From the NCBI GenBank assembly GCA_003648455.1, contig QMPG01000144.1, forward strand, positions 1 through 7,584: a stretch of DNA of 7,584 nucleotides, written 5' to 3'. The notes below the pieces were generated by a model. That model was not told where the DNA came from, made no database searches, and saw only the letters and a program-made list of their open reading frames with translations. The position numbers and the translations under genes were made by a program. This DNA is from Bacteroidota bacterium (GTDB lineage: Bacteria; Bacteroidota; Bacteroidia; Bacteroidales; B39-G9). Shown piece after piece: positions 1-7,475 of this stretch (its first letter is position 1; each line of letters starts with the position of its first letter).

Positions 1-121
1 CAATAGCGAATACACCATAAGGGTTAAACCGAAAATCGAAAGTGGTAACGTTCATTGAAATCCAGAAGTTATTGTAAATTTACTGCTTCGTAACGCCTTA
101 CGGTGCATCGCAGGGCCGTTG
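1..121 (+). repeat. attC-like structured site 1 (5' edge cut by window start)
   Basis: The 5' arm at 6-22 pairs with the 3' arm at 96-111. Of 16 aligned positions 14 are complementary, two are A/C oppositions (A12 and A17 in the 5' arm), and A10 is an extra unpaired base. The 5' arm holds the shared motif TAC-N3-AT (11-18). The loop between the arms is AT-rich, about 73 nt. The site ends in CCGTT at 116-120. In sites 2 and 4, nine bases separate AAC from TAC, and the same spacing here makes base 1 the C of an AAC box, so only its first two bases would be missing. The layout is that of an integron attC site, and the spacing matches the other three sites in the window. The recombination role is inferred. 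Confidence 0.7.
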
Positions 122-148
122 GCGGTAATACGCAAAAGAATCTTCAAT

Positions 149-180
149 TTTGAATAATTAATAGAATATTCGTAACTTTG
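149..180 (+). promoter_or_regulatory. Bacteroidota-type promoter of cassette 1
   Basis: TTTG at 149-152 and TAACTTTG at 173-180 are 20 bp apart. This fits the Bacteroidota consensus of a -33 TTTG and a -7 TAnnTTTG. Transcription would start within a few bases of the ATG at 185, so the mRNA would be leaderless or nearly so. It lies inside the cassette, downstream of site 1, so the gene pair should be expressed independently of its position in the array. No equally good match was found at the start of cassettes 2 and 3. Confidence 0.6.
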
Positions 181-184
181 TTGA

Positions 185-715
185 ATGCTTGAATATGAAA
201 ATACCGGACTGGAATTTGAGATTGATGAACTGACCAATTCCATTAGAAACGTTATTACAAACGACAGTTTTCAAACCACAATTTCGAGAATAACAAAAAG
301 CGATTTAAAATCTATCACAAAGAAAAAAGGCTGGCTGTTCAACTGGAGAAAAGAACTTGGATTTCCTGAGAGAGACGTTTTCAAATTAACGATTGTAAAC
401 AATCAACATATTATACAAGGACTGATTAGTTTGGAAGTTAAAACTGACCATGTATATATGCACCTTGTTGAGAGCGCACCATTCAACAAAGGAAAAGGAA
501 AAATATATTCAGGAGTTCCAGGGAATTTAGTTGCTTTTGCATGCAAAATATCATTCCAACGTGGACATGAAGGAAATATCGCATTCATTTCAAAAACCCA
601 ATTGATTGAGCATTATGTCAAAACTTTAGGTGCAATACATTTTGGAGGGAGACTAATGATAATTAACACAAATTCAGCATTAAAATTAGTAAACAAATAT
701 TATTCAAATCTATAG
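185..715 (+). CDS. GNAT-like N-acetyltransferase-fold protein
   Basis: A 176-aa soluble protein with no signal peptide or membrane segment. Residues 111-150 look like the acetyl-CoA-binding and following part of a GNAT fold: VPGNLVAFAC (111-120), then RGHEG and a beta strand with FISKTQLIEHY (126-144) and a terminal LGAIHFGG. The N-terminal half includes KKKGWLFNW (46-54) and a strand before VNNQHIIQGLISL (71-83). I remember similar proteins of this length and N-terminus from many Bacteroidota, usually annotated hypothetical or N-acetyltransferase. The substrate is unknown. ATG 185 is chosen because the family-like N-terminus starts here. The near-overlapping promoter would give almost no leader. 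A 51-aa gene starts two bases after its stop, and GNAT proteins paired with a small partner are often toxins (TacT/AtaT type), but this one lacks the usual DUF1778 neighbour, so that role is a guess. Confidence 0.7.
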   Translation: MLEYENTGLEFEIDELTNSIRNVITNDSFQTTISRITKSDLKSITKKKGWLFNWRKELGFPERDVFKLTIVNNQHIIQGLISLEVKTDHVYMHLVESAPFNKGKGKIYSGVPGNLVAFACKISFQRGHEGNIAFISKTQLIEHYVKTLGAIHFGGRLMIINTNSALKLVNKYYSNL

Positions 716-717
716 TC

Positions 718-873
718 ATGAAAACAAAAAGAGATAAAAAAGAGTTAGATGTTGATTTCATCGGCGGACAAGAATCTTTGACAAAAGAGGAAGAAAAAAA
801 ATTAAGTGAATACTTCCAGAGAAATAAGCAACGGAAAACAAGGTTGCGAAAAAGAGAAAAAGAAACCGCTTAA
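718..873 (+). CDS. Small highly charged 51-aa protein, possible partner or antitoxin of the GNAT-like protein
   Basis: ATG 718 lies two bases after the stop of the GNAT-like gene, so translation is probably coupled. The 51-aa product starts MKTKRDKKELDVDFIGGQ, continues with LTKEEEKKLSEYF (21-33) and ends in a basic tail rich in K, R and E. I recall short Bacteroidota proteins with the same DVDFIGG...LTxEExxxLSxYF pattern next to GNAT-like genes, which supports a real conserved gene rather than a chance frame. The first part looks like a flexible binding peptide and the second a single amphipathic helix. Gene order (possible toxin first, small gene second) and the private promoter suit a toxin-antitoxin cassette, a common cargo of large integrons. 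No DNA-binding fold is evident. The function is inferred. Confidence 0.7.
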   Translation: MKTKRDKKELDVDFIGGQESLTKEEEKKLSEYFQRNKQRKTRLRKREKETA

Positions 874-884
874 GGATAAAGTAC

Positions 885-1022
885 TACCGCCAACAGCAAA
901 TAATACCCCATAGCCGGTTAGCAGTTATTAAGAAAAATGAGAAGAAAAATTAACATACAAGTAATCAACAAAAATCCTGCAAAGAAACGGCTACGGGGCA
1001 TATTTGCGACACGTTGTAGGGC
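885..1022 (+). repeat. attC-like structured site 2
   Basis: The AAC box is at 892-894. The 5' arm 896-916 pairs with the 3' arm 988-1007 along 20 bp, with one extra A in the 5' arm (902 or 903) and two A/C oppositions (A905, A910). The shared TAC-N3-AT motif is at 904-911. The loop 917-987 is 71 nt and AT-rich. The CGTT box is at 1012-1015. The outer sequence on the left (TACCGCCAAC, 885-894) matches the start of cassette 1, and that on the right (GTTGTAGGGC, 1013-1022) matches the end of cassette 2, so in the array the outer arms do not pair with each other beyond AAC/GTT. AAC to CGTT spans 124 bp. Confidence 0.75.
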
Positions 1023-1066
1023 ATTTGAAGAAACAGCAGAAAATAAAGAATTTAAGGAATAAATAA

Positions 1067-2140
1067 ATGGCAAATAAAATTTTAAGAAATGCTGATAGAG
1101 CAAAGAAAGATGAGTTCTACACACAACTTACTGATATTGAAAAAGAAGTAAAACATTACAAAGATCAATTTAAAAACAAGGTTGTTTATTGTAATGCTGA
1201 CGACCCATTTGAAAGTAATTTTTTTAAATATTTTGCTTCAAATTTTAATATGCTGGGGCTTAAAAAATTAATTGCAACAAGTTATGCTGGTTCACCAATT
1301 GTGGGTAAACAATTATCATTTTTTGATATAGAAGGTGTCAAGAATGAAAAGAAAAAAGAACCTATGATGATTGAAATCAATGAAGTAAAAGACTTCAACA
1401 ATGATGGTGCAATAAACATAACAGATGTAGAATATTTATTAAAACACAATAAAAATGTTGCCACCCCTCTTGAAGGCAGTGGAGATTTTAGAAGTAAAGA
1501 ATGTGTTGAAATCTTAAAAGAAGCAGATATTGTTGTTACTAATCCACCATTTTCATTGTTTCGTGAATATGTTGAACAATTAGAAGAATACAAAAAGAAA
1601 TTTTTAATTATTGGGAATACAAATGCAATTACATATAAAGAGATTTTTAGATTAATTAAAGAAGATAAGATTAGAACAGGTTATACAAATTTTAATGTTG
1701 GAATGTTCTTTGTTGTGCCGGATGATTGGGAAAAATACCACCATATTGATGAAAATGGTAAAAAAATAGCACGGGTTTCAACTTCTTGTTGGTTTACTAA
1801 TCTTGATGTAAAAAAACATCAAGAAGACATTATTCTTTATAAAACATATATCGACAATGAAGATGATTATCCCAAATTTGATAATTATGATGCTATAAAT
1901 GTAGATAAAGTAAAAGATATACCTATGGATTACGATGGTGTAATGGGTGTGCCTATAACTTTTGTTGATAAATATAACCCTGCCCAATTTGAGATAATTG
2001 ATGGTTTAAATAGATACACAATATTAGATGTTGCTGGACTTAATAAAGACGCTATAAAAAACCATCTTCATATGACTGAAATAAATGGAAAGTCAAAATA
2101 TTTTAGAATTCTGATTAAAAATAAAAAGGTGATTAAATAA
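1067..2140 (+). CDS. EcoRI-family adenine-specific DNA methyltransferase
   Basis: This 357-aa protein should transfer a methyl group from S-adenosylmethionine to N6 of adenine in a specific DNA site. The N-terminus has the EcoRI-methylase pattern: KKDEFYTQ (13-20), VVYCNADDP (39-47), FFKYFASNF (52-60) and LGLKKLIATSY (63-73). The catalytic motif IV NPPF is at residues 159-162 within DIVVTNPPFSLFREYV. NTNAITYKEIF (184-194) and VGMFFVVPDDW (211-221) continue the family pattern. Residues 110-121 form an EF-hand-like loop, FNNDGAINITDV. The length is normal for the family. An AAGGA at 1054-1058, 8 bp before ATG 1067, supports the start. The nuclease gene follows after two bases. The recognition sequence cannot be read from the protein; the EcoRI resemblance does not prove GAATTC specificity. 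Confidence 0.9.
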   Translation: MANKILRNADRAKKDEFYTQLTDIEKEVKHYKDQFKNKVVYCNADDPFESNFFKYFASNFNMLGLKKLIATSYAGSPIVGKQLSFFDIEGVKNEKKKEPMMIEINEVKDFNNDGAINITDVEYLLKHNKNVATPLEGSGDFRSKECVEILKEADIVVTNPPFSLFREYVEQLEEYKKKFLIIGNTNAITYKEIFRLIKEDKIRTGYTNFNVGMFFVVPDDWEKYHHIDENGKKIARVSTSCWFTNLDVKKHQEDIILYKTYIDNEDDYPKFDNYDAINVDKVKDIPMDYDGVMGVPITFVDKYNPAQFEIIDGLNRYTILDVAGLNKDAIKNHLHMTEINGKSKYFRILIKNKKVIK

Positions 2141-2142
2141 TT

Positions 2143-3240
2143 ATGAAAATAGAATTACAAGAAATTACAGTTCGTGATTTAACAAAAGACTTTGAAGACA
2201 ATTCAGAAGCAGGTGTAATTGGATATGGGGGAAAACTCGATATTCGTCCACCTTATCAACGAGAATTTATATATAAAGATAAGCAGAGAGATGCTGTAAT
2301 TAATACTATTACAAAAGAATTTCCGCTAAATGTAATGTATTGGGCTGTTCGTGAAGACGGAAATTTTGAAATTATTGACGGACAACAACGCACAATTTCA
2401 GTTTGTCAATATGTTAATAATGATTTTTCAATAAGTGGTTTGGCTTTTCATAATTTACCAAAGGATAAGCAGGAACAAATACTAAATTACAAATTAATGG
2501 TTTATTTCTGTGAAGGAACAGACAGCGAAAAATTGGAATGGTTTAAAACAATTAACATTGCAGGTGAAAAATTAACAGACCAGGAATTAAGAAATGCTGT
2601 TTATTCAGGTTCGTGGGTAACAGACGCAAAAAAATATTTTAGTAAAACAGGTTGTGTTGCTTACCAAATAGGAAGTGATTATTTGAATGGTTCGCCAATT
2701 CGTCAAGACTATTTAGAAACAGCAATAAAGTGGATTTCTGATGGAAAAATTGAAGATTATATGTCAAAACATCAGCACGACCCAAACGCAAGTGCTTTAT
2801 GGAGATATTTTCAAGATGTAATCACTTGGGTTGAAGCAACTTTTCCAAAGAAATACAATAAGAAAAGAAAGAAATTTATGAAAGGTATTGATTGGGGAAC
2901 CTTATACAATCAATTCAAAGATAAAACCTATGATACTGAAAAATTAGAAGAAGAAATAGCAAAACTGATACTTGATGATGATGTTACAAACAAAAAAGGA
3001 ATATATCCTTATGTATTGACAAAAAAAGAAAAGTATCTTTCAATTCGTGCTTTTACAGATGCCACGAAAATAAAAGTTTACGAAAAACAAAAAGGAATTT
3101 GTGTAAAATGCAAAAAACATTTTGAAATAACAGAAATGGAAGCCGACCATATTACACCTTGGCACGAAGGCGGAAAAACTATTGAAGAAAATTGTCAAAT
3201 GTTATGTAAGGATTGTAATAGGAAAAAATCAGGAAAATAA
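2143..3240 (+). CDS. DUF262 (GmrS-like) domain fused to a C-terminal HNH endonuclease
   Basis: A 365-aa cytoplasmic protein. The N-terminal DUF262 region carries RPPYQREF (35-42) and the hallmark IDGQQR (78-83), which in GmrSD, BrxU and SspE relatives belongs to a nucleotide-binding or hydrolysing centre. The C-terminus is a zinc-type HNH nuclease: CVKC (320-323), ADHITPWHEGG (334-344) with H336 as likely general base, N350 in EENCQMLC, and CKDCN (355-359) closing the zinc site. All expected HNH residues are present. It starts two bases after the methyltransferase stop, with AAGGTGA at 2126-2132 inside that gene, so translation is probably coupled. Known DUF262 nucleases are often modification-dependent; here the adjacent methyltransferase suggests it is the restriction partner whose sites are protected by methylation. 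That pairing is inferred. Confidence 0.87.
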   Translation: MKIELQEITVRDLTKDFEDNSEAGVIGYGGKLDIRPPYQREFIYKDKQRDAVINTITKEFPLNVMYWAVREDGNFEIIDGQQRTISVCQYVNNDFSISGLAFHNLPKDKQEQILNYKLMVYFCEGTDSEKLEWFKTINIAGEKLTDQELRNAVYSGSWVTDAKKYFSKTGCVAYQIGSDYLNGSPIRQDYLETAIKWISDGKIEDYMSKHQHDPNASALWRYFQDVITWVEATFPKKYNKKRKKFMKGIDWGTLYNQFKDKTYDTEKLEEEIAKLILDDDVTNKKGIYPYVLTKKEKYLSIRAFTDATKIKVYEKQKGICVKCKKHFEITEMEADHITPWHEGGKTIEENCQMLCKDCNRKKSGK

Positions 3241-3248
3241 AGAAAAAC

Positions 3249-3384
3249 GCCCTACAACAAAAGCTATACGTAATGCGGGTAAAGTGCTAATTATGAAGAT
3301 TATAACATTAAATAAAATTTGCAGTAAACTGAAAGTGTGGTATTTCAAAGTCCCGCACTACGCATAGCCCTAACCGTTACCTGC
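3249..3384 (+). repeat. attC-like structured site 3
   Basis: The AAC box is at 3256-3258. The 5' arm 3263-3279 pairs with the 3' arm 3352-3368 at 15 of 17 positions, the other two being A/C oppositions (A3268, A3273). The shared TAC-N3-AT motif is at 3267-3274. The loop 3280-3351 is 72 nt. The CGTT box is at 3375-3378. AAC to CGTT is 123 bp. Unlike the other sites I see no extra base in the 5' arm. The left outer sequence GCCCTACAAC belongs to cassette 2 and the right one, GTTACCTGC (3376-3384), to cassette 3. Confidence 0.75.
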
Positions 3385-3440
3385 AAGGCTATCCAAGAAA
3401 ACAACAAACGTTTAAGTAGAAGACAAAAAAACAGAGACTT

Positions 3441-5555
3441 ATGAAAAAAAAAGTTTTACTCATTTTAATAATTTACTTGACAAATTTTGCTAATGCTGTT
3501 GAACCATCGTGGATAAATTATACCAATGGTGATAATGTACTAGTTCTGGTTGAAGAAGGCAATATTATTTGGATAGGCACAAGTGGTGGTTTGGTGAAAC
3601 TTAATAAAATAACCGGAATTCCAACTTTTTACAATGGCTCAAATTCAAGATTGCCAGATAACAATATAAGCTCATTAGCCATAGATGATAATGGAACTAA
3701 GTGGATTGGAACAAGTAGAGGACTTGCAGCTTTTGATGGAACAAACTGGATAATTTACGATGCCTCAAATTCAGGTTTGCCCAGTAACAGACTTACTTCA
3801 ATTGCCATTGATGAAAATGGGACTAAATGGATTGGTACTTATTATTATGGTTTAACAGAGTTTAACGGTACTAACTGGATTGTATATGATTCTTACAACT
3901 CGGATTTACCCAATAATCATGTCAATTCAATAGCAATAGATGATAACGGGTCTAAATGGATTGGTACTTATGACGGTGGCTTAACAGAATTTGACGGAAC
4001 GAATTGGACATCCTACAATACATCAAATTCGGGATTACCAAACAATGATGTGTATACAATAGCCATCGACGAAAACGGAACCAAGTGGATTGGTACTTTG
4101 GGTGGGGGTTTAACAACTTTTAATGGAACAAATTGGACAATTTACAACACTTCAAATTCTAGCTTACCCTCTAACTATGTGATGTCATTAGCGATTGAGG
4201 GAAACGCTTCTAAGTGGATTGGAACTTGGAATGGATTGACAAAATTTGACGGGGCAAACTGGACAACTTATAATATATCCAATTCTGGATTGCCAGATAA
4301 CTTTGTCCATTCAATTATAATTGATGAAGGTGGCACAAAGTGGATTGGAACTCGGGAGGAGGGGTTAATAACTTTTGACGAAGTCAACTGGCTAGCATAC
4401 AACACTTCAAATTCGGGTTTACCTGATAACAGAGTCATGGCAATAGCTATTGACCTAACTGGAACAAAGTGGATTGGAACCGACTATTCTGGACTAGCAC
4501 AATTTGACGGGACAAACTGGATCATCTACGACACCTCAAATTCTGGTATACCAAGTGACAGGCTCACAGCAATCGCCATTGATGCAAGTGGGTCAGAATG
4601 GATTGGGACTCTTGATAAAGGATTAACAGTATTTAATGGGACTGTCTGGACAACTTACAACACATTAAACTCAGACATACCAAGCAATAGGCTCACTTCA
4701 ATAGCAATTGATGTAAACGGGGTAAAATGGGTTGGAACATATGATGGCGGATTAACAGAATTTAGCGAAACAAACTGGACAGTTTACAACACATCAAATT
4801 CAGGAATCCCTAGTAACAGAATTATCTCATTAGCTATTGACGTAAGTGGAACTAAGTGGATTGGGACTAATAAAGGATTGGTAAAATATAATGGGACTAA
4901 CTGGACAGTTTACGACACTTCAAATTCAGAATTACCCAGTAATTGGGTTTTGTCAATAGCGATTGATGAAAATGGGACTAAGTGGATTGGGTCTCAGAAT
5001 GGTGGTTTAGCAGCTTTTGACGGAACGGATTGGACAATATACAACACTTTAAATTCTGGCCTACAAGATAATTATGTTCACTCAACTGCCATTGACGAAA
5101 ACAATACGAAATGGATTGGAACTTGGGGTGGTTTAGCGACTTTTGATGGAACAATCTGGACATCTTTTATCTCTTCTAATTCAGGCTTGCCTTCTAATTA
5201 TGTTTACAAAATAACCATAGATGAGAACGGCACAAAGTGGCTTGGAACTCTCGATGGTGGTCTGGCAGTTTATAATGAAAATGGTATTCCTATTTCAATT
5301 GATGAAAATATATTATCAATGAACAAAGTAAATGTTTACCCTAATCCAGTTTTTGATTTTGTGCATATCAAATTGCTTTCTGGAGGTGACATATCAAGCA
5401 TAGAAATTATTAATATTCAAGGCCAACCAATTAAACATCTAAAGTATTCAGTTAATCACAACACAATGGATGTAAGGGGTTTGCCCAAAGGTTTTTACTT
5501 GATTAAAATTTATTATGATAATGAAATTGTTCTTAAAAAACTGATAAAAAACTGA
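3441..5555 (+). CDS. Secreted two-component-regulator-propeller-like repeat protein with T9SS sorting domain
   Basis: A 704-aa protein. Residues 1-19 form a signal peptide (MKKK, hydrophobic core, ANA before V20). Residues about 20-613 hold 14 propeller-type units: one degenerate first unit and 13 clear ones of 42-43 aa from residue 67, with the pattern SNSGLPSN..., IAID-NGTKWIGT, GL--F-GTNWT-YNT. Fourteen units fit two seven-bladed beta-propellers. WIGT-type units are those of the Reg_prop family, but no membrane segment or kinase follows. Residues 628-704 are a type A T9SS sorting domain with VYPNP (632-636), GLPKGFYLI and a basic end, so it should be exported across the outer membrane and cleaved or anchored. 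Ligand and role are unknown. It is an odd neighbour for a nuclease, and could be unrelated cargo. Confidence 0.85.
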   Translation: MKKKVLLILIIYLTNFANAVEPSWINYTNGDNVLVLVEEGNIIWIGTSGGLVKLNKITGIPTFYNGSNSRLPDNNISSLAIDDNGTKWIGTSRGLAAFDGTNWIIYDASNSGLPSNRLTSIAIDENGTKWIGTYYYGLTEFNGTNWIVYDSYNSDLPNNHVNSIAIDDNGSKWIGTYDGGLTEFDGTNWTSYNTSNSGLPNNDVYTIAIDENGTKWIGTLGGGLTTFNGTNWTIYNTSNSSLPSNYVMSLAIEGNASKWIGTWNGLTKFDGANWTTYNISNSGLPDNFVHSIIIDEGGTKWIGTREEGLITFDEVNWLAYNTSNSGLPDNRVMAIAIDLTGTKWIGTDYSGLAQFDGTNWIIYDTSNSGIPSDRLTAIAIDASGSEWIGTLDKGLTVFNGTVWTTYNTLNSDIPSNRLTSIAIDVNGVKWVGTYDGGLTEFSETNWTVYNTSNSGIPSNRIISLAIDVSGTKWIGTNKGLVKYNGTNWTVYDTSNSELPSNWVLSIAIDENGTKWIGSQNGGLAAFDGTDWTIYNTLNSGLQDNYVHSTAIDENNTKWIGTWGGLATFDGTIWTSFISSNSGLPSNYVYKITIDENGTKWLGTLDGGLAVYNENGIPISIDENILSMNKVNVYPNPVFDFVHIKLLSGGDISSIEIINIQGQPIKHLKYSVNHNTMDVRGLPKGFYLIKIYYDNEIVLKKLIKN
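3639..5279 (+). repeat. 13 in-frame tandem coding repeats of 126-129 bp
   Basis: Within the propeller gene the DNA repeats every 126 or 129 bp (residues 67-613). Each unit encodes SNSGLP, then AID, then KWIGT, then GL..F.GTNW..Y. Protein identity between units is high while third codon positions differ, so the units are related by duplication but are not fresh copies. The last unit is shortened, running into the linker before the sorting domain. Confidence 0.85.
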
Positions 5556-5617
5556 GGTCAAATTCTGTGCCTAATAAAGGTAATCAGTAAGGATTTAAGT
5601 TGCAATATTTCAATGCT

Positions 5618-7330
5618 ATGTCAACAAACTCTAAAGGAGATATTCTTGAATCAATTACAGAAATATTAGAAAGAAGTCTTTCTGATGAATCTACAGTAAT
5701 TACTAAAAAGAAAAAAATTGAAGACTTGGATGGTATCGTCCGAGAAATTGACATTTATATTGAGACTATTGTAAACAAAAGAAAATTTTCCATTGCAATT
5801 GAGTGTAAGAATTACAAAGAAGAATCAAGGATTGATATGGATAAGATTGGCGCTTTTTATGAAAAGTGCGAAAGATTACCATTTATTAATAAAATGATTT
5901 TTCTTACAACTAGTGATTATCAAAAAGGAGCTATAAAAAAGGCACGAACACGGAACATTGAACTATACAGAATTAGTCAAGAATTACTAGAAGACAAAAG
6001 TCAATTAGGTATTGACAAAGTTTCAATAATTGAAAAAAAATGTAAAATATTAGCAGTTAGGTTTAATAGTGAAAAGTTATTGAAGAATAGGATTTTTACT
6101 AATGAAAAGTTTGAGTTCTATAGTGATGATAAAAAACTTATTAAACATGAAGATTTTCTTCAGAAAATTATTGAATTACCTGGGATATGGAGATTCTTAT
6201 TCACTAAATCAGGAGTATTACTAAATCAAAAAAAGAGAATCTACCCAAACTTGAACACTAAGAATATTTATACTAATTATCGCGGAAATTATTATCCAGT
6301 CGAATTAATGCAATTTACTTTGGAAATTGAATACTTGTTTAACCCTCTTGAAATAAGTAACATTAAGAAATATCAATCTTTGACCGAGAATACTACATTA
6401 GCATTATTCTCTGACTTAGAATTTGTCGCGAATGGAATTAAACATAGGTTTTGTTATGTGAAACCCACAGACGAGAATATAGGAAGATTTTTCATCTCAA
6501 CTTCCAATGAAAAGGAATCAGTTGAGTTGAAAACATTAGGCAAGCTAGCATTAGAACCAAAACCTAAATCAAAACTTCGAAACATTCAAGTTCTACCTTA
6601 TGAATTCAAAATATCGAAACATACCGTTAATAATTTAAATTTAAACAATCAGACTGCACCTATCGAAGAGAATTCAAGATTCCTTAAAGAATTAAAATCT
6701 AAAAAGTCGTCTGCTCTTATAGGACTTGATGAACACAAAAGAAAACTATTTATTATGATACCATTTTCACATAACAAAAAACTTATTACTGCAAAATTTC
6801 CTGAACCAATAAGTTTGTTTTTTAATCATGCCATAGAATTGCATTTAAAAAGCATGTCTTATAAAAGTATAATGGTTTCACATTCAACTGATGATGAGTC
6901 TATCTTATTGCAGGATGACAGTTATCATAAGTTTTTGCAATATGGAGTTAGTAGTATTTTTATGCTTCATTCAGCAATTGAATTATTCATAAATTCTTGT
7001 ATAAAAGATAATTTTAAATTTGACCTATATGGTAAATTTTTGAATAAAAAAGAACTTGAAGAACAGTTGACTTTAAACGAAAAACTAGAAAAAATTATAC
7101 CTCAAATTAGTAATTTCAAACTCAATTCAAATAAACGGATAGTAAGAAACATAATAGATTTAAATGAATTAAACGAAGAACTACAAAACTTAAAAACCTC
7201 TGAAACTGTTAATCAACCATTTCTTGACACATTTGAAAGACTTATAAAATTCAACATGGAAGATTGTTTTGAATCAACTAAAAATCTTTTTAAAAAGGTG
7301 AATAAAAATTTTAGACTAATAGAATTGTAA
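5618..7330 (+). CDS. Mrr-like PD-(D/E)xK restriction endonuclease with long C-terminal region
   Basis: 570 aa from ATG 5618. The N-terminal 130 residues look like an Mrr_cat-type nuclease: GDILES with E11, then REIDIYIE with D45, a strand, and ECK with E62 and K64 in IAIECKNYK, then NKMIFLTTSDYQKGA and a final ELYRIS strand. E11, D45, E62 and K64 supply the expected catalytic set. The rest is not recognised in the middle. The last 130 residues are helical, with SIFMLHSAIELFINSCI near residue 450, recalling HEPN-type domains. A start at TTG 5600 would add six residues and has an AAGGA 6 bp upstream (5589-5593); ATG 5618 is preferred because MSTNSKGD resembles the start of relatives. It follows the propeller gene by 62 bp and is the last gene of cassette 3. 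A modification-dependent defence nuclease is likely, target unknown. Confidence 0.75.
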   Translation: MSTNSKGDILESITEILERSLSDESTVITKKKKIEDLDGIVREIDIYIETIVNKRKFSIAIECKNYKEESRIDMDKIGAFYEKCERLPFINKMIFLTTSDYQKGAIKKARTRNIELYRISQELLEDKSQLGIDKVSIIEKKCKILAVRFNSEKLLKNRIFTNEKFEFYSDDKKLIKHEDFLQKIIELPGIWRFLFTKSGVLLNQKKRIYPNLNTKNIYTNYRGNYYPVELMQFTLEIEYLFNPLEISNIKKYQSLTENTTLALFSDLEFVANGIKHRFCYVKPTDENIGRFFISTSNEKESVELKTLGKLALEPKPKSKLRNIQVLPYEFKISKHTVNNLNLNNQTAPIEENSRFLKELKSKKSSALIGLDEHKRKLFIMIPFSHNKKLITAKFPEPISLFFNHAIELHLKSMSYKSIMVSHSTDDESILLQDDSYHKFLQYGVSSIFMLHSAIELFINSCIKDNFKFDLYGKFLNKKELEEQLTLNEKLEKIIPQISNFKLNSNKRIVRNIIDLNELNEELQNLKTSETVNQPFLDTFERLIKFNMEDCFESTKNLFKKVNKNFRLIEL

Positions 7331-7336
7331 AGCCCA

Positions 7337-7475
7337 GCAGGTAACATGCGCTCATACTGCATGCCGCTATTGATTGTAAAAAGTAAAATCATGTTCCATA
7401 ATTTAATATATTCGTACACAGAAAAATACTAAAACCCAACGGCGGCACGCATTATAGCGCCACCCGTTGGCAATT
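7337..7475 (+). repeat. attC-like structured site 4
   Basis: The AAC box is at 7343-7345. The 5' arm 7348-7367 pairs with the 3' arm 7442-7460, with one extra base (C7353), one C/T opposition and one A/C opposition (A7361). The shared TAC-N3-AT motif is at 7355-7362. The loop 7368-7441 is 74 nt. The CGTT box is at 7465-7468. AAC to CGTT is 126 bp. The left outer arm GCAGGTAAC belongs to cassette 3, and the right one (GTTGGCAATT) starts the next unit. A second short inverted repeat, CCAACGG (7436-7442) with CCGTTGG (7464-7470), brackets its 3' half. Confidence 0.72.

Follow-up and report, generated by a model that had tools for sequence, protein, structure and literature searches.

Our analysis indicates that a 7,584-nt stretch of contig QMPG01000144.1 (hereafter the window), from a genome of the Bacteroidota order Bacteroidales, belongs to the gene-cassette array of a system that resembles integrons and is common in Bacteroidota, a reading to which we give a probability of about 0.88. 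Four attC-like hairpin sites mark off three whole cassettes in the window, and each cassette's two ends are complementary to each other. The sites are of a new type, with two A·C mismatches per site, and are scored far higher by a covariance model of their own kind (R2) than by one made from sites linked to the integron integrase IntI (R3). In relatives, sequence comparison shows one hairpin site at the 3' end of each cassette, self-complementary cassette ends, and a tyrosine recombinase of the array's own with an attI-like start next to it. The window is probably an inner part of an array of this kind, with the integrase out of view.

All four sites are on the + strand. Site 1 (1-120, GTT at 118-120) has lost its 5' box at the window edge, while sites 2 (892-1015, AAC at 892-894, GTT at 1013-1015), 3 (3256-3378, AAC at 3256-3258, GTT at 3376-3378) and 4 (7343-7468, AAC at 7343-7345, GTT at 7466-7468) are complete, the GTT of site 4 being the start of a next cassette that runs out of the window. 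An initial annotation of the sequence had placed attC-like sites here, with a length of 123-126 nt from AAC to GTT and a TAC-N3-AT motif in the 5' arm; we find the boxes as proposed, spans of 124, 123 and 126 nt for sites 2, 3 and 4, and the motif in all four sites. They are also the four best + strand matches of two models. A scan of genome contigs with the 176-amino-acid protein encoded in the first cassette gave 80 loci (1.17 Mb), in several of which a script for complementary arms flanked by AAC and GTT found tandem sites; 14 such sites made up model R1, and 108 R1 matches (one of them a reverse-strand duplicate) made up R2, neither model containing window sequence. With filters off, R1 scored the matches starting at 891, 3255, 1 and 7342 at 44.7, 29.3, 14.8 and 7.5 bits, the last (site 4, E 0.37) scarcely above the next + strand match at 6.6 bits. 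R2 gave 53.6, 70.3, 24.5 and 33.8 bits at the same starts, with E values of 3e-16 for site 3, 4e-12 for site 2, 4e-7 for site 4 and 8e-5 for site 1, and its next-best + strand match reached 9.3 bits. On the - strand, both models also report sites 2 and 3 in reverse complement. Covariation counts were not used as proof, because the sites had been picked by, or fitted to, structure.

The decisive sign, which settled the identity of the sites, is the complementarity of the cassette ends. The 5' end of an integron cassette provides the partner of the cassette's own 3' core box, and the window follows this rule: the first 14 or so bases of each cassette, counted from GTT, complement its own last 14 or so, up to AAC. 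In cassette 1 (119-1013) the R'-like arm GTTGGCGGTAATAC at 118-131 pairs with the 3' outer arm GTACTACCGCCAAC at 881-894; in cassette 2 (1014-3376) GTTGTAGGGCATT at 1013-1025 pairs with AACGCCCTACAAC at 3246-3258; and in cassette 3 (3377-7466) GTTACCTGCAAGGC at 3376-3389 pairs with GCCCAGCAGGTAAC at 7332-7345, all on the + strand. The cassette limits given here follow the matched ends and a putative cut position taken by analogy with the G|TT of integrons. The paired arms lie 0.8-4 kb apart, one cassette per pair, and in all three cassettes the ends agree at 10 of 12 positions after GTT, which is above chance and bears out the integron-cassette logic that the initial annotation had recognized. 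Since it is the two ends of one cassette that are complementary, plain hairpins at gene ends would not produce this pattern. Long outer arms alone were dropped as a novelty, as extended outer-arm pairing of 9-11 nt is already described for classical integrons in PMC2727003.

The same comparison, of the 12 nt behind GTT with the reverse complement of the 12 nt ahead of the next AAC, was made for 108 consecutive site pairs, taken from the R1-found sites of the relatives' and integrase loci together with the two weak window sites; reverse-strand duplicates, a few other sites and single-site integrase loci were left out. Mean agreement was 8.38 of 12, compared to 3.98 (standard deviation 0.16, maximum 4.54, 1000 shuffles) with partners shuffled among all pairs and 5.36 (maximum 6.19) with partners shuffled within loci. 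Within the 83 pairs that have at least 7 agreements, positions 1-6 pair in 77-81, and position +8 is an A in 82 and paired in 2, most often standing as A·C (64). Of 54 cassettes with paired ends, 49 have their longest open reading frame (ORF) on the strand of the array.

Across the 80 loci, R2 gave 96 matches at E 0.01 or better, 95 of them on the strand of the 176-amino-acid gene, and the sole off-strand match repeats a listed site in reverse complement. At least one site is present in 20 of the 80 loci that hold a relative of this gene and none in the other 60, and the arrays differ, which is not the picture of fixed places with the same neighbours that the initial annotation had set against its own proposal. 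Flavobacterium caeni (G001; for example loci L010 and L093) has at least 146 sites scattered over many contigs, probably because its array is very large and breaks the assembly. An estimate of prevalence with the RNA model across 296 genomes was discarded, as 17 candidates were scored per genome and F. caeni gave 0. Longer sites, of about 155-195 nt, were seen in the arrays of L053 (Agriterribacter humi), L240, L016, L024 and L019, and L053 has a succession of several cassettes of nearly equal length, about 500 bp each.

In eight genomes behind the site-like loci (one of which, G008, has no R2 site in its locus L025), the match to the integron integrase model TIGR02249 was split in two by a gap over model positions of about 178-240, and its curated cut-off of 265 bits was reached in none; three new-type proteins scored 177-211 bits. 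In two loci a recombinase gene stands directly upstream of the array on the same strand. With the query L097:215-1852, relatives at E 1e-40 or better were found in 117 of 395 evenly drawn Bacteroidota genomes, with at most three candidates scored per genome. The 60 best-scoring integrases, picked on protein similarity alone, were then examined with up to 8 kb of downstream and 1.5 kb of upstream DNA each (341.5 and 87.7 kb covered; more than 1.5 kb upstream for a few loci only). R1 gave 119 matches at 95 places, of which 93 are downstream of the integrase on the same strand and 2 upstream on the other strand. At least one downstream site was found by R1 for 34 of the 60 integrases, and R2 added L170, L191, L207, L208 and L210, making 39. 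Five more (L180, L182, L201, L202 and L216) have sites of at least 41 bits upstream on the opposite strand, those of L182 and L216 appearing only with more upstream DNA. Altogether, sites adjoin 44 of the 60 best-scoring integrases, and two more are doubtful (L213 and L219, with short upstream matches). Further divergent cases are L231-L233 and the outlier L234. In one sub-clade, integrase and array have the classical divergent geometry. The initial annotation had advised a search for further tandem sites with unrelated genes between them and a tyrosine recombinase near one end, and this is what the relatives hold. Several integrases reach contig ends, as expected if repeated sites break assembly. 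Some of these proteins already carry the NCBI name 'site-specific tyrosine recombinase/integron integrase'. Acinetobacter plasmids also carry recombinases that share about 50% identity with the L099 integrase, one match being annotated TnpF.

Behind the co-directional integrases lies a candidate attI. In 44 testable loci of the 45 listed, we took, among the GTTs downstream of the integrase, the one with the best match to the first cassette's end: the pairing reaches at least 9 of 11 positions in 37 of the 44, in 32 of these within 250 bp of the stop codon, compared to a mean of 1.6 and a maximum of 5 with partners shuffled (200 shuffles). The 34 attI candidates with at least 7 of 11 positions paired and lying 10-135 bp behind the stop codon have a median distance of 91 bp from it, and share a sequence ahead of GTT whose usual form is TATAAANRA|GTT (A at -8 in 33, T at -7 in 30 and A at -6 in 31 of the 34). 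Close integrase loci offer a natural comparison that bears on possible cassette gain and loss at attI. L207, L218, L212 and L237, four loci from three genomes (L212 and L237 share one), are 92-95% identical up to attI and then different; for the pairs L207/L212 and L237/L207 the local alignment stops at GTT itself, and for the remaining pairs it runs on past GTT by 3 to about 30 nt. Over six comparisons, identity is 0.95-1.0 in the last 20 nt ahead of GTT and 0.2-0.5 from 23 nt behind it onwards. The junction comparison of L178 and L179 was out of register and was not used. About 70 nt ahead of the attI GTT, L178 and L190 seem to hold more copies of the core motif, direct and inverted, which could be accessory integrase sites.

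The new-type integrases are without the insertion of about 41 residues whose helix in IntI docks the extrahelical bases of attC. The spacer from the catalytic lysine motif to HxxRH is 64-70 residues in 72 of the 73 new-type proteins measured (of 75), compared to 105-107 in all 20 true IntI measured, and L178 aligned to IntI 2A3V has 24 residues opposite 66 of IntI. The exception is L234 with 80 residues; L094, of the same outlier lineage, has 69. These two form a third lineage (support of 100 in the trees), and beside L234 there are 116-nt sites of the A·C type on the opposite strand. As a point of likeness to XerA, NF040815 is the best NCBIfam model for two of three proteins scanned, L094 included. 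An AlphaFold2 model of the relative P0003 (mean predicted local distance difference test score 83.5, predicted template modelling score 0.51) predicts an N-terminal domain of beta-beta-alpha-beta-beta-alpha form (residues 3-56), followed by the recombinase. By fold, the solved chains nearest to it are 4A8E and 5HXY (archaeal Xer, XerA) and then IntI 2A3V, in a comparison with the PDB that spans residues 66-327 and so leaves the N-terminal domain unplaced. An N-terminal extension (at least 280 residues ahead of HxxRH) is found in 30 of 37 co-directional integrases and in 0 of 11 of the divergent clade. L093, L095, L097, L178 and their relatives have a small N-terminal repeat resembling WSxTxKxWHxP, a loose form of which occurs within the first 110 residues of 26 of the 37 and 0 of the 11. 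The weak Pfam resemblances of this region, to HARP (22.6 bits, L097) and DUF5710 (19.4 bits, L093), fell below cut-offs.

The position of the family was examined in a quick tree that took in 87 recombinases, with Bacteroidota Xer at the root, and was supported by the Shimodaira-Hasegawa-like approximate likelihood ratio test (SH-aLRT) without bootstrap, 18 rows (long branches, near-copies and some others) having been omitted beforehand. The 55 new-type proteins come out as a clade (SH-aLRT 91), as do the 21 IntI (99) and the two together with L094 and L234 (99), while the 9 Bacteroidota Xer form a separate clade (99) with the new-type family outside it. In an earlier tree that included two IntI, support was 84 for 73 new-type rows and 87 for the divergent clade of 11 rows; the smallest clade that holds the divergent rows in the 87-protein tree has 79. 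On this quick tree, whose rooting is provisional, the new-type family would stand beside IntI and not inside it, and the insertion may have been either gained or lost.

Could the window instead be an ordinary IntI integron, or an attC cluster without IntI, with degenerate R boxes? We consider this improbable, and the anatomy of the sites speaks against it. The rule of the cassette ends is common to both kinds, and true IntI is by no means rare here: 84 of 296 Bacteroidota genomes exceed the TIGR02249 cut-off, which made us abandon the idea of a phylum without true IntI, and 6 of the 20 true-IntI loci examined (L250-L269) have divergent arrays that R3, built from 11 IntI-linked sites, scores at 36 bits or more, although three of the six (L253, L255 and L265) supplied R3's own sites. 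Nor do the core boxes separate the two. RYYYAAC and GTTRRRY both occur in only 6 of 100 new-type sites (YAAC in 100, GTTR in 99), so that the loss of the classical boxes claimed by the initial annotation is real; 12 IntI-linked Bacteroidota sites hold RYYYAAC once and GTTRRRY twice, and degenerate R boxes are therefore not special and were given up as a mark of the new type. The models and the mismatches do separate them. R3 scores sites 4 and 3 of the window at 14.5 and 13.0 bits and lists neither site 2 nor site 1 up to E 5, against the 33.8, 70.3, 53.6 and 24.5 bits of R2. Each window site has two A·C mismatches, with one extra base in sites 2 and 4 and none in site 3; in site 1 two A/G differences between the arms are A·C mismatches, and 7 of the 8 As in the four TAC-N3-AT motifs sit on such mismatches. 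The 12 IntI-linked sites all have 1-3 extra bases in the 5' arm, 2-3 in 11 of them, and an A·C mismatch in 1, compared to an A·C mismatch in 95 of 101 new-type sites and no extra 5' arm base in 81 (one or two in the other 20). Of 25 matches to divergent-type sites of the new kind, 10 were omitted (repeats of one place, or matches that were short, weak or over-long); the 15 kept, two of them from L234, all have an A·C mismatch, and none has an extra base.

It seems slightly less probable still that the arrays are served by another recombinase, Xer or a canonical IntI acting in trans, and that the linked new-type integrase is a passenger. Both kinds of integrase do occur together in several genomes (G013, G106 and G292), and some arrays lie on contigs with no integrase among the matches listed, such as C69 of F. 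caeni. A passenger would not readily account for 93 of 95 sites in a fixed place and strand relative to the integrase, nor for an attI motif whose distance from the integrase's stop codon hardly varies, and F. caeni, with its very many sites, has no TIGR02249 match at E 1e-50. That the sites are RNA elements, gene-end terminators or miniature transposable elements we regard as scarcely credible: the hairpins do lie just behind genes and on the gene strand in 95 of 96 matches, but the pairing joins one end of each cassette to its other end, as much as kilobases away, it also links attI with the first cassette's end, and the window has no Rfam match up to E 1. The array of an integron-like system with its own integrase family is the reading that we retain.

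Several observations weigh against this reading. The window holds no integrase gene, and of the 60 best-scoring integrases 14 have no site, 7 of them with less than 0.5 kb to the contig end and 7 with none in the DNA examined. Agreement between cassette ends is below 9 of 12 in 47 of the 108 consecutive pairs, some of them because an intervening site was missed. The seeds of R1 were chosen for ungapped complementary arms, which biases the bulge-free share of R1 and R2 sites upward; bearing on this caveat, R3 scored at most 29.3 bits on six new-type loci. The two systems also meet: the IntI locus L250, whose genome carries both kinds of integrase, has three new-type sites (at 451-2173; 59, 38 and 32 bits) on the strand of the IntI gene and at least 3.8 kb upstream of it. 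Whole-site energies favour the bottom strand in only 65 of 107 sites. Recombination itself we infer from the comparison of sequences.

The genes of the window are open frames on the + strand and fit the cassette limits. Cassette 1 holds the gene for the 176-amino-acid protein (185-715), which has no Pfam family and recurs as a cassette gene, and a second small ORF of 51 amino acids (718-873). Cassette 2 encodes an EcoRI-type adenine methyltransferase (1067-2140; PF13651, E 1.6e-136) and a protein with the Pfam domains GmrSD_N (PF03235) and HNH (PF01844) (2143-3240), which is probably the restriction partner of the methylase. In cassette 3, a propeller-repeat protein (PF07494) with a secretion tail (PF18962) (3441-5555) is followed by a protein with Mrr-type restriction domains (PF13156, PF04471) (5600-7330, with an ATG start at 5618). 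Restriction-type genes are present in two of the three cassettes (1067-3240 and 5600-7330). The initial annotation had every gene ending at a site; this is right for the final gene of each cassette, which stops 1-7 bp ahead of the outer arm, and wrong for the first genes of the two-gene cassettes, which stop at 715, 2140 and 5555.

By analogy with IntI (as described in PMC2727003 and PMC7790495), the recombinase would cut at the GTT junction. Cassettes would be excised as circles, in which the site becomes a full hairpin with its outer arms paired, and would be re-inserted at attI. The site may be recognized as a folded single strand, probably the bottom strand, on which each A·C becomes a G·T and whose arm duplex is the stabler one in 78 of 107 sites. 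Polarity could be marked by the conserved A·C mismatches of the inner stem (G·T wobbles on the bottom strand) and also by the unpaired A at +8 of the outer stem, and the small N-terminal domain found in most co-directional integrases may take over part of site recognition. We lean towards the view that integrons exist in a second, widespread kind, whose structure-specific cassette recombination needs neither the I2 insertion nor extrahelical bases; its polarity would be given by A·C/G·T mismatches that another part of the integrase reads.

The likeness to the classical integron of IntI, attI and attC lies in tandem one-strand cassettes with one hairpin site each and complementary ends, in a CGTT-type junction, and in an attI beside the integrase. 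The classical intI gene is divergent from its array, and the divergent sub-clade of the new type has the same geometry. Unlike the classical integron, the new type has an integrase without the IntI insertion, sites mostly without extrahelical bases and with A·C mismatches, and a near-invariant unpaired A at +8; in its main sub-type integrase and array run in one direction, attI is AT-rich and the integrases mostly carry the N-terminal extension, which the divergent clade does not. With XerA, XerC and XerD the new integrases share the fold and the absence of the insertion, but unlike Xer they are tied to cassette arrays and an attI, and stand apart from Bacteroidota Xer, beside IntI, in the tree. 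The initial annotation had offered a divergent integron family of Bacteroidota or a distinct recombinase system as alternatives, and both halves hold: the working is integron-like and the recombinase family lacks the part that defines IntI.

In the open-licence literature, which leaves subscription-only papers and preprints outside its scope, we found no description of this system. Smyshlyaev et al. 2021 (PMC8138268) describe a subgroup of integron-like tyrosine recombinases in which the IntI insertion is not fully conserved, and the present family may belong to it; in the passages of that paper concerned with the subgroup, no cassette array is tied to insertion-less members and the insertion is termed essential for integron function. 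Elsewhere, in the parts that bear on this point, the additional domain or intI patch was a requirement for Nemergut et al. (PMC2426708), archaeal integrons are described as possessing the IntI domain (PMC9668308), and the 11 attC models of Ghaly et al. as presented there include none for Bacteroidota (PMC8352920). As set out in PMC7790495, the I2 helix and the extrahelical bases docked on it let IntI recombine folded attC and stop second strand exchange, and its authors note that a lack of intermediates hinders tracing the origin of folded-attC recombination.

A natural system without the insertion and without extrahelical bases, placed beside IntI in the tree, makes this question of origin testable. 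Provided that it is truly sister to IntI, the insertion and the extrahelical bases would have arisen together either out of this lineage or alongside it, and the system could be the missing natural intermediate in integron evolution. For the Bacteroidota themselves, the flow of cassette genes, restriction genes included, may escape surveys that are based on IntI and classical attC models.

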